64,000 nucleotides of DNA from Mortierella sp. BCC40632. Its lineage: Eukaryota > Mortierellomycota > Mortierellomycetes > Mortierellales > Mortierellaceae. The stretch is taken from NCBI GenBank assembly GCA_011634665.1, contig WAEK01000017.1:1045501-1109500 (forward strand), read 5' to 3'. A program made the translations under genes and the position numbers. The notes beneath the pieces were generated by a model. It was given only the letters and a program-made list of their open reading frames with translations, did not search any database and had not been told where the DNA came from. Shown here piece by piece: positions 12,901-57,640 of this stretch. How positions within the stretch are numbered: the stretch's first letter is position 1; the number at the start of each line of letters is the position of its first letter.

Positions 12901-14146
12901 GACATTTTCTTTAGGGGAGGGAAGTACAGTACTCTACGCTTATAGTCACTCAGTCACTCAAAGGGCCTCAGACCTTGATCTTTCTCTCTCTCTCTCTTTC
13001 TCTCTCCTCCATGCAAAACAGGATTGACAAAGCCCCCAGACCATCCGCATGAGACCAATATCTAAATGTCAACAGCTGCTGTAGCCCATCAAATAACTGG
13101 ACGTTTCCAGACAAGCTCAATAAGCCCTGGCCTGCAAATCTAAGGCAACAGTCGTGCTTTTCCCTCACCTCACCTCACCCCCCCTCCCTCTTTTTTCTAT
13201 CCAAAGGACTTTCCTAAATATTAGATACAGCTGCGTGTTTTTTTTTTTTTTTTTTTTTTCGGAAGGGCCAATTTTCATCGTGGAATTTTAGAGCGCCTTG
13301 CCCCTGCTCTACTATCCATGGTACAAGAAGGGTAGTTTCGTCCTCATGGAATTTCGCTGTCCTAACCCTCAATTGGCAAAGTTGGCAGGGATCTTGTGGT
13401 CCATCTCAGGACTGGAGAGGAGGGAGGGCGAAAAAAAGAAAGAAAGAAGAGAGAGAGAAAAGCCTTGGTGAAGCTACGGATCCCGGTCTCATAGCCCGTA
13501 TCGATGGCTAGTACTTTTGTCACGTCTTCAAGAATGAGACGGTCGTCCGCTAATATTTTTCACTTGTTTGTTTCTTCTGCCAGCCGTAAACTGTAACAAG
13601 GTTGATAGAAAAGAAAAGATCCTGACATGTAACTTGCTCTTGGAGTACTCTAGGAGAAGGCCCCCCTTTTTGGGGGGGGGTATGGTCCGATAACGAAATG
13701 ATAAATTTGAAGACTGTAGGAGTCGCAGCCAGAACCAGAGCGAAAGGTAATGGTGCAGGATCCGAAAAAAGGGGGAGGGAGTGGGGGCATTACACCGCAA
13801 CTCTACAAGAAGTCATGCATTCTGGTCTAGGGAAAGACACGACTGAAAAGATCGCAAAGAGGGGGCAACAGGGATTGTAGAAAATATGGATTCTAGTAGT
13901 CAGTTCGCTGATGCTGTCGTGAGAATTAGGAAGCAATCAAGATAGCAAGATCTTAAAATGAGACATTTTGTAGAGTATCTTTTAGAAACTTGGCAGCATG
14001 CGCAAATGATCTCAAGCAGACTATTGGAGGTCTTTGTAGAGCTACTGCATTTTTTTTTCTTTGGGATGGTTGATTCGAAAAATTGGGATGTCCCAACATA
14101 GATATTTGGGATGTCTGATAAAGGAATTTGGGAAATATAAGAGAAT
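9953..14146. other. Long non-coding stretch
   Basis: About 4.2 kb without a convincing gene on either strand. ORFs are short, cross CT-rich or homopolymer tracts and lack domains. It contains pyrimidine-rich blocks (10925-10970, 12430-12475, 12985-13010) and poly(A)/(T) tracts near 10731, 11912 and 13239. From about 14090 to 14150 the repeated TTTGGGA/TTGGGAT motif leads into the transposase ORF. Confidence 0.55.
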
Positions 14147-15478
14147 TTGGAAGAGCAAGAGCACAACTTTATCACTTTAGAAATGGCCTTCCCAGCACCA
14201 CAGCTCATCCAGTCCCAAGGCACCGGCGTTGAGCATAATGCTGACTCCAACACCTCCAGGAATGACAGTCGTCTGCGGTCATTGATGGATTTACACGACT
14301 TCCAGGCTGCCCAGCACAAAAACACCTCTGCCTCTGACCCTGGTAGTCGGAGGGAGAAGGCGTCCGATCAAGCTCCAAAGATAAAGTGTGGCCCTCGATC
14401 TACGTACACTAAAGCCTCAGAGAAGCAACTTGAGTCGCTGATCGAGGCATTCATGATCAAAGATTTGTCGGTGGACAAGGCAGCAAAGCACGCAAACCTG
14501 CCTAGGAGCACCGCATATCGATTCATTAGATGCTATCTGGACAACCCAGATGTCGAGCTTTCAATGATGCTGAAGAGAAACCCCAGGACGAAGAAGCCCG
14601 AAAGGCAGTTGACACAAGAGCACACAGAGTTCATCCTGTCACTGGTCGCAAACCAGGCGACCCTGACAGTTGAGAGCATTCATAAAACCCTGAATGAGAA
14701 GTTCCAAGCATTGAAAGTGTCAAAATCAACGATTTACACGCATATGAGGAATGAATGTCGCTTATCCTTGAAACGTGTTATCAAGATTCCTCAGATCAGG
14801 AACGATCCGAGTGTCATCAACGAGCGATACAACTGGGTCGAGGCATGGACAGGCCATTACAACGATTTTGTCAATCGCTGTATCTTTATTGACGAGGCAG
14901 GGTTCAACATGCACATCATTCGTCGCGTGGGATGGGCTAGAGAGGGTGAGCGAGCAACACAGCTTGTCCCAAACAGCAAGGGCAAGAATTACACGGTCAT
15001 CGGAGCCATTTGTGTGCAGGGTATCGTTGACATGACTGTTGTTCTACCAAAGTCGGCTTCGACGAGCAAGAAGAGTAGATTGAGGACTGGTTCGGAAAAT
15101 GAACGAAAGGGAACCACAGCCAAGCACTTTCGGGCCTTTGTTTTTAGCCTCATGGACCAATTGGACAAAACCGAGATGAAGGGCTGCACCTTGGTGATGG
15201 ATAATGCGCCCATCCACAATGGTGTTGCAGACATCATTCAGCTGCGTGGATATCGGTACCTCCCTTTGCCACGATACTCACCATTTTTGAATCCTATTGA
15301 GGAATGCTGGTCCAAGGTCAAGTCCTGTTTTGGGAGTCGTGTAATCAACAAGACGGAGACGGTAGAGAGTCGCATCAAAGAATCTTTGAGGTCCATCACC
15401 ACGGAGAATATTCACGGCTGGATCATGCATTCCCTGTCGTTTTTCCCGAAGTGCCTCGCTAGAGAACAACATTTGTAG
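14147..15478 (+). CDS. IS630/Tc1/mariner-type DDE transposase
   Basis: A 443-residue uninterrupted ORF. Residues about 85-130 form a helix-turn-helix (LSVDKAAKHANLPRSTAYRF), followed by a second DNA-binding region (VSKSTIYTHMRNE). The DDE_3 catalytic core follows: first Asp in RCIFIDEAGFNMH (about 250), second in LVMDNAPIHNG (about 352), and the third acidic residue in SPFLNPIEECWSKVK (about 387). The product would cut and paste a TA-flanked TIR element. It looks intact and could be active; the MITEs nearby also use TA targets. ATG 14147 is the first in-frame start; MAFPAPQ at 14183 is an alternative. Confidence 0.9.
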   Translation: MEEQEHNFITLEMAFPAPQLIQSQGTGVEHNADSNTSRNDSRLRSLMDLHDFQAAQHKNTSASDPGSRREKASDQAPKIKCGPRSTYTKASEKQLESLIEAFMIKDLSVDKAAKHANLPRSTAYRFIRCYLDNPDVELSMMLKRNPRTKKPERQLTQEHTEFILSLVANQATLTVESIHKTLNEKFQALKVSKSTIYTHMRNECRLSLKRVIKIPQIRNDPSVINERYNWVEAWTGHYNDFVNRCIFIDEAGFNMHIIRRVGWAREGERATQLVPNSKGKNYTVIGAICVQGIVDMTVVLPKSASTSKKSRLRTGSENERKGTTAKHFRAFVFSLMDQLDKTEMKGCTLVMDNAPIHNGVADIIQLRGYRYLPLPRYSPFLNPIEECWSKVKSCFGSRVINKTETVESRIKESLRSITTENIHGWIMHSLSFFPKCLAREQHL

Positions 15479-52592: not shown

Positions 52593-52607
52593 TATCCCTT
52601 AAACCGT
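52593..52607 (+). repeat. Left TIR of XPG-Fanzor element
   Basis: Perfect 15-bp match to the reverse complement of 57626-57640. Followed by GGTTTAA, which with TTAAACC inside the TIR forms a local inverted repeat. Confidence 0.9.
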
Positions 52608-52756
52608 AAGGTTTAATAGGCAAATTTGCCAGTCAAAAAATGGGAGTGAAAGAGTGAAAGAGAGGGTTAGCATCCACTACTGGTTATGTTTGAGTTGGCC
52701 TGGCTTGCATCTCCGTGAATTGCCCATGAATTGCTTACTAATACGGGATAATTATT

Positions 52757-52794
52757 GTCGAGCTCCACGCTCGACTTGGGGAGCAGAGCGCTCC
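52757..52794 (-). ncRNA. Tandem hairpins at the Fanzor stop codon (candidate guide-RNA scaffold)
   Basis: On the minus strand, GGAGC-GCTCT-GCTCC (52794-52780) touches the TAG stop. CCAA... separates it from GTCGAGC-GTGGA-GCTCGAC (52775-52757), a perfect 7-bp stem. Both loops are 5 nt. The position between the ORF end and the element end fits known Fanzor/TnpB guide RNAs; function is inferred. Confidence 0.4.
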
Positions 52795-55700
52795 TAGTTG
52801 GTTATCCGGCGCAAGAACCATGGCCATTCCATCTTGGACAACCAGTGGTGTACCGCCATTGCCATGTTGTGAGCCCCATTGATATCACGATCACGGCCTG
52901 CATCATGCTGGACCCCTCCTCCTGCCTTGCATACAAGATTTCTTTTCATCTCCTCTGTTTTCAAACCACAGAGGCAGCATTGTCGCGATGTCTTGAACTC
53001 GTCAACCAGGCAGACTATGATTCCCATCCCTTGTGCCTGTCATCCACAAATAAAACGATTAAATCGTTAGCTACTCTCCTCACTTTGGTCTACACAATTG
53101 CTCATATTAATGTTCATTACCATCTGGCACAGCCTCTCCAACACAACGTATGTCCCACTCGTTCCACCGTTCAATGGTTTGAATACTCCATCCCCAATCG
53201 CGAGGATAACCTGTCGCTTCGATGGTAAACTGGGCTTAGGCAGAGGCTCTTTCATATCTTCTGCAGGTTCGAGATTGGCAATGCTGACTGCTGTCCGCAA
53301 AATATGCGAGAGTCGCTGGTCGATCTCTGCAGCATGTTCTTGTTGTTTTCGAAACTTGAGCGTCTTGTACGCCGTCGATCCATAGAAAGATCCAAGCGAT
53401 CTGTCCGCATTGAGCTTCGACAGGACATGGTCTTCCGTGCTCTTGGAGACCTGTTTCAGTCGAGTCTCCTCAGTAGCCTCACCTCCAGGATCATCAACCG
53501 TTACTGGGACTATCGTTTGCTCTACTGCGTTGATCCCATCTGTCTCCTTGGCGAGTTGCATTAGGTGTCTCATCCCCTGTGTGTGCCAGTTGTATGTCCC
53601 TCTGGAAAGGTGGTGGTTGGAAGCTTGGTTGGGCCGTGCACTGTCAACGATCACTGCTGTGACAAGCTCCGCTATCCCTGGGTCAACCCCAATCACCACG
53701 TAGCTATCGCCAACAAGCTGTAAAACAGTCTCTTTGTTCGCAAAGAGCTCTGTCGCATACCGGATAGTGGTTCGGCCTACGTTCAGAGGATGAGCACTTG
53801 CGTTGGCTGCCTCGGCTTTGATCTTGGGCCTTTGAAACTTTTCAGTCTTTGGATCTAGAGGACGGTACGCAAGCAGCCGCAACTGATATCCGTCCGTTAC
53901 CATCGTCCCTCGCAAGCAGTATTTCTGCTGTGGAGAAATCGCTGCTGGCATGCTTTCTTTCTCGATCTGGCAACTTTTGGTTTTCTTCAGAATTGCAATC
54001 CTCTCCTTTGTCATCTCGACAAATTGAGTCTTTAGTTGACCATATCGTCTCTTGGCTTCACTCTCGTCGCCCTGAGCTACTGCCGTCGAGCTTTCTGCTC
54101 TTTTTCGCCCTGGCAATCTCTGGGCTGCCTCCTCGAGCTCCTCTTCCGCCATTGCAAAAGAGTCGAAAAGACTTGGAACTTGAGACGATGAGGGCCTCCC
54201 AACACAGGTAGTCTTGTCGTAATTGCTTCTTTGTCTCCCACCGACAAAGAGCCTGTAGTAGATCTCGCCTGGATGATTGGATGCCTTCGAAGATCCCTCT
54301 CTCTGGGAGCTGACTCCTAACAGGTCCTTGATTATTCCTTGTTCCACTTTGTGCTCCAAATCTTGTCGAAAAATAGCGCGGACAAAATACTGTTCAGAAA
54401 TGGTGAGAAATGACGTTGACTCTTTTGCAGTAGGAGCTAGTTCTAGTCGGTCCTTGATGGGCAGCTGGAAGTTGAGGACTGTGAAGACCTCGGCCTGGCT
54501 AAACGCCTCTGATATTCCTTTTTCCTCTACTGCTGCCAGCATGGCTGCTCCCTCTGTTGATTGTGCCCATCCTGGGTTCAGCCGACACACCTAGAATATT
54601 AGGTTGAGTTAACAACTATTAAAAAAAAAAAAAAAAAAAAAGAGCATGAACCACTTACTCGTTTGATCAACTCGGGGACAAACTCGACAAACGTTTTGCA
54701 CAACATACTGTACAGATTCCGGCCAGAACTCTCAAAAAACACTGTGGTACTTGTCCTTGTAGGTGCGACTGGAGCCGATCTCGTTGTTGTTTGAAATTGG
54801 GGCCTGCACTCTTTGCAAAGTTGTTCTACTACCTCCCTGGCTAGACTCATGCCAACAGTCCCTCGCTTTGTTCTGTTTTCATAGTATAGCAGCATTAAGA
54901 GCTGGCGGCAAAAATCCTCCGTATCTAGGATCTGTAACTTTTTTCTGCCATCCTCTTGACTCCCATTCACAGAGTACATGGCTGCAACAGTCTTGGCAAC
55001 AAACCACCGTACGATGTACAGTCCAATTTTTGTCGCCTCCGAGTGGCATTTGGCGAGTGCTAGCACCGTGTCGGCAATATACTTGGCAGCTCCACTGCGC
55101 TCCTCTTTGGTTTTTGAAGGCAACCTCTCCTCCAAAACTGACGCTACTCGCCACAGAATCGGCTCGCGCTTCTGGGTAATACAGTCAGAAGTTGAGTCCA
55201 ATGCTTGGTCAATTAGATTGCCAGGCGATACTCTGTTGGATGATCCTGTTCCCATTACGCTTCCTGTTCCTAGAGCCGTTTGAACTGCAAGCCTTGATGC
55301 CTTTGCTCTCGCCAGCTTTTTGCATTGTCGTTTCGGTGGAGGATCTGGCGGTGCGTTTGCCTTTTTTGCTTCACTTGCTGATGCTCCTCTCTTGATACCT
55401 TGCCTACATTTGGATCAATCGAAAAAATGTCAGTTCTCGTATCCTTTATTTTTTTAATTACATCAATCCAACCTGCAAAGTCGCATACACCTTGCCTTTT
55501 GAGAATCTGCTTGTCAGAGTCGAGTCGTTCGCCCACAGGGCACTCTTGTTGTTGTATTTTCAACCCCTTGACCTTGTCTTTTGTGTGTTCGATGTTCCCT
55601 TGAGCCGTCTCGCCAGCAACACTTGGGTCGGAGACCTCCTCATCCTCTTCCTCATCGTGAGATCTTGGAAAATTTTCGATTAACCCCATGCCTCGAGGTT

Positions 55701-57071
55701 GGACAAGCTTAAAACTCGGCTTTGTTTGTCCCTTGACCGGTCGTTTCGTAGATCTAGGTCCACGCCATGTCGGCCCAGCGTCTTCATTTCGCTGTTCATC
55801 AGCAAGCAAAAATGAAAAGGGCGCTCTAGGCAATGGTTCTAAACCTAGATGACATTTTTTTTAAAAAAAAAAAAAATAGTGGACAAGTACCATTAGATAT
55901 GAATCCCTGCAGCGTCGTAGGACTAAGGAGTCAAGTATTGAAAAAAAAAAAATACTCAGTCTTACTTACTTCGTGCTTTAGACTTTTCTTGCCTGATCTG
56001 AAAGTTGAGTCTGGAAAGCTCCTCGGGGAATCTCTTTGCGGCAGCCAAGACTAGGTCCAACAGGCTACTCGTCTCGGAAGGCGTGGCTAGGAGCTTGAGA
56101 GGCGTCTCTTCCGCGTCGAGAAAGATCTTGGCCGCGGCATCAAATTTATGTGGATCTGCATCGTGGCTAGCCGTGTATCCCGCCAGCAGCGCACTTGCAG
56201 TCCTTTGGTCTGCTGGTGAGCGGTTCCACAGCTTCACAAGAATATTCTGGTTCTTGGTGATACCAAATCCTTTGAGGTTGTCGCAATAATCATTACCTGA
56301 AGTAATGGCAATCGTCTGCCACACCCTAAAGTCAGGAACCCCTAGTTTCTCTAGGGCTTGGTCGTCGATTGTATAAAGATAGAATGTGGACCTGTTGCTG
56401 TAGTCTTGCCTGAGTACATGGACGTTAGGGATGAACAGCATGTCACTATCAGTGGTCGCGACATAGATCCGTTGGCTGCTCTCCATTGCTTCATGTCTAA
56501 TACAGTTGTCGGCCTCGCCAGAGCAGACGTGAGCATGACGACCAAGAGCAACAAGGTCTTTGGCCAGCCTGTGTCGCGTGTCCATGCTGATCTCCATTGC
56601 ACCTCTCCAGGACACCATCATTTTCTTGAACGCCCGGAGTAGCCGTCGGCGCAAGTTGCGCGCCGAGCGAAGGCCGCCTTCGGGGTACTCTTGTCCAGGC
56701 TGGATTGCCGCATTGAATGCGGATAGTGAGCTGGAGCACTGGCGACGGCTATCCTCCTCTCTCTTGGAGCGATATTTCCGGGCGACGGCCTTTTCGCTGG
56801 TGGGGAATCCGTCGATGTGTATTATCGCATCCCTTGAGAAAACGAGATCCAGCTTCTTATTGAGCGCCTTGGCGACCCAACCTGGTTCTTTGTCTGGCTT
56901 CTTGCCTCTTGAAGGCGAGCGCGGTGTGTGGAACCAAAATAGAATGGCAAGGATGTAGTGAAAAAACAAGGAGAAGAGGTCGATATGAACAGATGGGAAC
57001 TCTTTCGGATCTACAGAAGATCGTGGGATGCCTGCGTCCGTAACTTTTTTCCAGGCCTGTTTAACTCCCAT
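52794..57071 (-). CDS. XPG/FEN1-like nuclease fused to Fanzor RNA-guided nuclease
   Basis: Four exons: 55970-57071, 54659-55844, 53121-54590 and 52794-53036 (4,001 nt). Phase works throughout except for one missing base near 55391 (GGCAAGGTATC where an extra G would give KGIKRG), so about 1,333 residues. Residues 1-about 300 are an XPG/FEN1 nuclease: MGVKQAW, VHID (D31), IHIDGFP (D87), GEADNC (E186, D188), ATTDSDML (D208, D210), SGNDYCDNLKGFG (D261, helix-2-turn-helix). About 370-760 is linker, with acidic and Lys-rich parts. The Fanzor core: RuvC-I VVIGVDPG (Asp about 1066), RuvC-II LVDEFKTS (Glu about 1266) with CCLCG, and RuvC-III GRDRDINGAHNM (Asp about 1304). The second zinc-finger Cys pair is reduced to one Cys. 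All catalytic acids of both folds are present. The single frameshift could be an assembly error or early decay. Confidence 0.85.
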
Positions 57072-57625
57072 GGTCAGAAGTGAATAAAAGTGAACTTTCG
57101 AAGATGTGAGGAAACGTGCCAGAGAAGTGGATAGAAAGTCGAAAAAAAAAAAAAAAAAAAAAAAAAAGATAAAAAAAAGGACATCGGGAGCTCGAGGTAT
57201 CAAAGCCAAATTCCGCCCCATCCACTCTCTTGCACTCTCTTACGCATCAGTGTCTATCCCGTGCTTTAGCGATTCATCAGATACTTTCATCAAAAAAAGT
57301 CGTTTGTCCTCTCTCTTTATTAATGGTGACCGAGTGAATCTTCAGCCATAGCAAGCAAAGCGAGCGACGGCTGTTAGCACAATACAATTATTAATAAATT
57401 CCGCACGGACCACAGGTGTGATCTCAGATGAGTGAGTAGACCCATTGGTTCCATGATGGTGCATTCTACCTAATGCCGGCTAGATTCTGATGGTAGATGT
57501 CAGCACGTAGTTTGATCTGCTAGTTTCTGACCATAGAGAACGAGGGGTTGTGGTTTAAAAGACTTTCGAGAAAAAGGCTGGAAACCTCCAAAATTTTTAA
57601 GTTAAATGGCATTTTTGCCTGGCTA
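57072..57625. other. 5' non-coding part of XPG-Fanzor element
   Basis: About 550 bp between the start codon and right TIR, with a poly(A) tract (57140-57168). It presumably holds the promoter on the minus strand. No other ORF. Confidence 0.5.
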
Positions 57626-57640
57626 ACGGTTTAAGGGATA
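57626..57640 (-). repeat. Right TIR of XPG-Fanzor element
   Basis: ACGGTTTAAGGGATA, the exact inverse of the left terminus; followed by TACATT. Confidence 0.9.

Follow-up and report, generated by a model that had tools for sequence, protein, structure and literature searches.

A repeat-bounded element of Mortierella sp. carries a gene predicted to join an XPG/FEN1-family domain to a Fanzor nuclease

Within a stretch of 64,000 nucleotides from Mortierella sp. BCC40632 (contig WAEK01000017.1, positions 1,045,501 to 1,109,500; hereafter the window, by whose positions features are numbered), a transposon-like element at 52593-57640 carries a gene whose predicted product unites an N-terminal domain of the XPG/FEN1 family with a C-terminal Fanzor (RuvC) nuclease, Fanzors being eukaryotic relatives of Cas12, the nuclease used for gene editing. 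We give somewhat better than even chances to the reading that this is a single transposon-borne protein with two nuclease centres, in which an RNA-guided cut would be followed by processing through the XPG part. The reading starts from what can be seen directly, namely one open frame, the profile matches of both domains, their conserved catalytic residues, purifying selection on both halves, correlated descent and a repeat-bounded element, and from these we infer the mechanism that lies beyond the protein and the element.

The element spans 5,048 bp including one TA per end, is itself without strand, and is bounded by inverted repeats of 15 bp: TATCCCTTAAACCGT at 52593-52607 on the plus strand, on the 3′ side of the gene, and the complement of this 15-mer at 57626-57640 on the minus strand, on the 5′ side. 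The outermost TA on each side may be target DNA rather than element. The element is present in multiple copies: the exact 15-mer occurs 30 times across the 49.9-Mb genome and not once read backwards, and by our own count, which leaves out three matches, 25 of these are ends of XPG-Fanzor copies and two bound an 88-bp mini-copy. In copy-to-copy comparison the flanks are unlike, except for copies C1 and C7, which have both flanks in common, and C3 and C11, which have the right flank in common. Two subfamilies share the 15-bp ends: subfamily A measures 4.6-5.1 kb in the four copies having both ends (window, C5, C9 and C10), and subfamily B about 7.1 kb (C1, C3, C7, C15 and C27), with roughly 2 kb extra upstream of the gene. 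An additional open reading frame (ORF) of at most 360 amino acids (aa) lies in subfamily B at about 0.7-1.8 kb inward of the 5′ end; it is broken in C1 and had no match in Pfam.

The gene itself lies on the minus strand and, with five exons and four GT-AG introns of 125, 113, 68 and 84 nt, encodes 1,295 aa without an internal stop. Exon 1 (57071-55970) begins with an ATG and carries the XPG/FEN1-family domain (aa 1 to about 285), followed by a helical C-terminus, as indicated by the RAD2/FEN1/EXO1 profile, the predicted structure and the frame; exon 2 (55844-55491), supported by frame and by similarity to subfamily B, is a linker. The middle of the protein, on the N-terminal side of the Fanzor part, is encoded by exon 3 (55377-54659), which is in frame and through which the profile of full-length relatives runs. 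Exon 4 (54590-53121) holds the Fanzor part with RuvC-I, and exon 5 (53036-52794), likewise in frame, the RuvC-II and RuvC-III motifs, the TNB domain and the stop codon. Intron 2, which is GT-AG and in phase, was set at 55490-55378 because the coding sequences of A and B for the most part cease to be similar at exon-2 residue 118 and become similar again at residues 12-15 of exon 3; in one decayed copy, C3, the limits fall at 102 and 38 instead. A placement at 55472-55404 was rejected, as it disrupts the frame and does not coincide with the limits of A/B homology.

An earlier note, made from the letters of this DNA, had assigned the N-terminal half to the XPG/FEN1 nuclease superfamily, and this agrees with both a profile of nine sequences, which matches RAD2/FEN1/EXO1 at 2e-12 to 3e-11, and the predicted structure, which matches EXO1 and FEN1 (families missing from the structure match list were not treated as excluded). 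The acidic residues named in that note, D31, D87, E186, D188, D208, D210 and D261, are all present in the window and correspond to the seven active-site carboxylates of XPG. Counted over the relatives that have no gap at the position, they are kept at D31 in 29 of 31, D87 in 38/38, E186 in 41/41, D188 in 42/42, D208 in 39 of 44, D210 in 44/44 and D261 in 49/49.

The C-terminal half is, by the same kind of evidence, assigned to the Fanzor (RuvC) nucleases, again as the note had proposed. In a Pfam scan that covered the exons, the TNB/OrfB zinc-ribbon family PF07282 matches exon 5 at 2e-7, past the cut-off, and the Fanzor profile covers aa 945-1293 of the window protein. A profile built from six Fanzor parts, of which two belong to the same genome, matches the TnpB-like L79 at 1.5e-8 and the Spizellomyces Fanzor 8gkh at 1e-7; exon 4 alone gave no match against the Protein Data Bank. 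All three motifs could be located, with GVDPG starting at aa 1026, VDEFKTS at aa 1226 and RDRDINGAHN at aa 1263, and they supply the RuvC D-E-D residues (in GVDPG, VDEF and RD), of which the E and the last D are invariant in the alignment of the six parts. Among relatives without a gap at the position, the three residues are found in 50 of 50 (D), 36 of 39 (E) and 41 of 41 (D).

The reading that both halves form one protein draws on the frame, the exon spacing and the conservation across the junction, and here too the note's reading stands. A profile of 50 Mortierellaceae-type proteins, with the window left out, gives a single continuous match to the window protein, over aa 70-808, which spans the XPG-Fanzor junction. 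The relative P0002 aligns to locus L077 continuously over aa 1-1307 without coverage gaps, and P0008 aligns over its aa 1-638 to locus L078 in one frame, L078 having an in-frame stop. In other Mortierellaceae both domains lie within one annotated protein, and in the copies with both ends the XPG and Fanzor parts sit inside the same inverted repeats; the XPG part as a host gene outside the repeats, which the note had named as a finding that would speak against it, was not seen. The tree distances of the XPG and Fanzor parts correlate (Mantel r 0.79, p 1e-4; 31 proteins, three of them near-identical), which fits one old fusion and shared descent. Substitution patterns furthermore indicate purifying selection on both halves: Between A and B, the ratio of nonsynonymous to synonymous change (dN/dS) is about 0.14 for the XPG part (window versus C27) and 0.08-0.19 for the Fanzor half (four B-type copies compared with the window), synonymous change being close to saturation in either case, and within A the comparison of the window with C10 yields 0.25 and 0.11 for the XPG part and the Fanzor half. 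Between the window and the C4 lineage described below, synonymous change is saturated.

The note had called the element intact. The open frame bears this out, but a compensated pair of indels, one base more at 54825 and one base fewer at 54740, sets the window apart from all six sister copies, so that about 28 codons of exon 3 differ while the frame stays open. Each of the six sister A copies has frame breaks under the exon model of the window, which leaves the window copy as the only one with a fully open frame in this comparison of seven A copies; shifted exon borders may account for some of the breaks.

Sequence comparison shows many relatives of the two-nuclease protein, both in this genome and among related fungi. 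Within the genome, a lineage on C4, C20, C9 and C24 has an XPG part about 33% identical to that of the window, and further lineages (L075-L078) have one that is 22-27% identical, with the order XPG then Fanzor throughout. On the basis of a hand-assembled list of 69 XPG matches, 38 of the 57 TNB matches have a same-strand XPG match at most 6 kb upstream, and in 33 of these pairs the distance is 2.5-3.32 kb; two of the 38 TNB matches are the ends of an older copy that is interrupted next to a B insertion, leaving 36 cleaner pairs. A Fanzor core from this genome matches 151 proteins in the protein database, in a search that admitted lengths of 0.55-1.75 times the query, scored the best 8,000 candidates and returned many partial gene models. 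Among the 120 of these that were listed, an XPG domain (scored at E < 1e-5) is present in 49 of the 54 with at least 900 aa, in 3 of the 24 with 600-899 aa and in none of the 42 shorter ones; the five long relatives lacking it have a downstream start or an unusual N-terminus. The named matches come from Mortierella, Linnemannia, Podila, Dissophora, Actinomortierella, Haplosporangium, Entomortierella and Benniella, all of them Mortierellaceae, and Lunasporangiospora is the source of a 70%-identical XPG fragment. The full-length window protein, queried as residues 1-1200 under an earlier guess of the intron-2 junction, had no match in the protein database among the best 8000 candidates scored, and viral contigs, prokaryote contigs and plasmids held no relatives at the thresholds used. 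Public annotation already pairs PF00867 with PF07282 in four proteins (P0013, P0014, P0033, P0073), and database labels of relatives read 'hypothetical protein', 'Rad2 nuclease' or 'XPG-I domain-containing protein'.

With regard to mobility, the note's statement that the element carries no DDE transposase holds: None was seen among its ORFs, and no DDE_3 match lies inside it among the matches listed. Genome-wide there are at least 151 DDE_3 matches, and any of these transposases might mobilise the element in trans. TA is found at both element borders, which suggests a TA target. A second XPG-Fanzor lineage (C4; L031/L067, L035/L068, L036/L069, L070) comprises four copies with the ends TACAGT...ACTGTA, which resemble Tc1/mariner ends, and A/B and the C4 lineage thus carry proteins of one type between transposon ends that differ. 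Two B copies (C1:551399-558581 and C7:2775447-2782581) have the same flanks and interrupt the FYNG motif of another Fanzor gene; they may represent one event. Joining these flanks with both TAs restores FYNG, which a single TA would break. This one site argues for a TATA target with no duplication of the TA, provided that the interrupted gene was intact beforehand. Joined-flank searches found no empty site, and the sibling C9 is without the site. Elsewhere in the window, a DDE_3 match of Tc1/mariner type lies at 14879-15349 on the plus strand (C17:1060379-1060849) in a 445-aa ORF (14141-15475).

Between the stop codon and the element end, we place a candidate guide-RNA (omega-RNA) region at 52593-52793 on the minus strand, whose hairpins are, in our own reading, common to subfamilies A and B. 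Palindromes adjoin the terminal repeats at both ends (52593-52640, GGCAAATTTGCC; 57590-57640, GGCAAAAATGCC) and could be a transposase site or an RNA hairpin. The mini-copy mentioned above (L081, C12:1433204-1433291) consists of both 15-bp ends and little else; it is possibly an internally deleted copy of the size of a guide RNA.

In the mechanism that we propose, RNA from the 3′ end of the element would direct the Fanzor part to a site that matches it, for example an emptied donor site, where Fanzor would open an R-loop and its RuvC centre would cut. The tethered XPG part would then cut or trim at the junction of single- and double-stranded DNA in the R-loop or at the resulting 5′ flap, and cellular repair of the break would copy the element back in; movement of the element itself would probably depend on a transposase supplied in trans. 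The XPG step gains plausibility from passages of PMC8888383 and PMC7286691, according to which XPG cuts bubbles at the 3′ junction and is able to cleave R-loops in vitro. The broader proposal, which we advance tentatively and at slightly less than even chances, is that Mortierellaceae carry RNA-guided dual nucleases as a class of their own ('XPG-Fanzors'), which would form a programmed R-loop through the Fanzor part and cut its flank with the fused XPG active site; a break or gap would then come from two unlike but coupled centres of one polypeptide, serving transposon spread.

A number of observations weigh against this picture. On the XPG side, Pfam XPG has no match in the window exons, with PF00867 alone missing the domain, and the single window sequence reaches only 0.38 with the RAD2/FEN1/EXO1 family; within A, the comparison with C5 gives a dN/dS of 0.52 for the XPG part, based on few changes. 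On the Fanzor side, the zinc ribbon of the window subfamily (52797-53036) has three of four cysteines in five A copies, and relatives have four. Besides, 19 of the 57 TNB matches are without an upstream XPG match: Of the three whose upstream slices were read, the one at C12 keeps an XPG remnant, and at C5 and C26 other genes are present, with no match to XPG. The candidate guide-RNA region had no match in Rfam and folds weakly better than shuffled sequences (z -1.91, 7 of 200 as good), a signal that we did not use as proof of a guide RNA. Finally, the position of intron 2 is deduced from sequence, and an intron 2 ending at the first AG would break the frame and yield a 535-aa product with XPG only.

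Another explanation is that gene prediction, here and in the databases, has wrongly joined two neighbouring genes. In the window, and at some other loci as well, introns do lie between the XPG exon and the remaining exons, and the one-gene model comes from DNA, not RNA. However, the exon gaps measure only 68-125 nt within one consistent frame, conservation is continuous across the junction and the same order recurs in many lineages; together with the agreement of the trees and the profile match that crosses the junction, these points lead us to set this explanation aside as exceedingly unlikely. We likewise regard it as very unlikely that the XPG part is a catalytically dead DNA-binding relic: While the frame breaks in the sister A copies and the absence of one D208-type residue in some relatives would accord with decay, the acidic residues are nearly always kept, and dN/dS between A and B is low.

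Two further explanations differ in what the XPG part would act upon. It could act on RNA and mature the element transcript into guide RNA, leaving RuvC alone to cut DNA, but its nearest relatives by profile and structure are DNA-structure nucleases, and we judge this to be improbable. Alternatively, the XPG part could work on transposition intermediates, that is on flaps or gaps left by a trans-acting transposase, apart from Fanzor targeting, with the fusion only keeping both together. The lack of a transposase in the element, the abundance of DDE_3 matches in the genome, the TA borders and the C4-lineage ends favor such a role. On the other hand, the tight co-descent of XPG and Fanzor parts across lineages with different ends suggests that the partner of the XPG part is Fanzor and not one transposase, and we consider this role possible, if on the unlikely side.

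In these elements a second, structure-specific nuclease stayed fused, with its active site kept, across diverged lineages, and the pairing bears on what Fanzors do for transposons. Given the action of XPG on R-loops, the pairing suggests two-step cleavage and perhaps a natural tool that both cuts and processes a programmed site. XPG-Fanzor proteins are already in public databases, which opens the class to immediate study.

Compared with the XPG/FEN1/EXO1/RAD2 nucleases, the window protein differs in being transposon-borne and fused to Fanzor, and in having EAD where EAE is usual for them. We found no published Fanzor-XPG fusion in the literature searched, where subscription papers were mostly outside reach. 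In the portions available, the Fanzor literature describes a RuvC nuclease and no XPG-type domain (PMC3627910, PMC10432273, PMC11423790), and the terms 'FEN1' and 'fusion' occur zero times in those of PMC10432273 and PMC11423790. The nearest phrase, 'Fanzor flap endonuclease homologs (Fendons)', stands in a preprint (PMC11071296), refers to proteins from viral contigs and links Fanzor with flap endonuclease; it is a single phrase without architecture, in which fusion or its absence is unstated. Already known, as far as the sections of PMC3627910 at hand go, are Fanzors in repeat-bounded elements without a transposase and other nucleases as separate genes of related elements. Fanzor1 (Spizellomyces SpuFz1; sections of PMC10432273 and PMC3627910) is accordingly alike in its RuvC D-E-D, its TNB zinc region and its repeat-bounded element without a transposase of its own, and differs in that the XPG-type domain seen here is not described for it there. 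Mariner elements of giant viruses carry Fanzor or a methyltransferase together with GIY-YIG or another endonuclease (same sections of PMC3627910): They resemble the present element in having an accessory nuclease within a Fanzor-carrying kind of element, whereas their nucleases are separate genes of other folds and the two of the Mortierella element appear to be joined in one protein.

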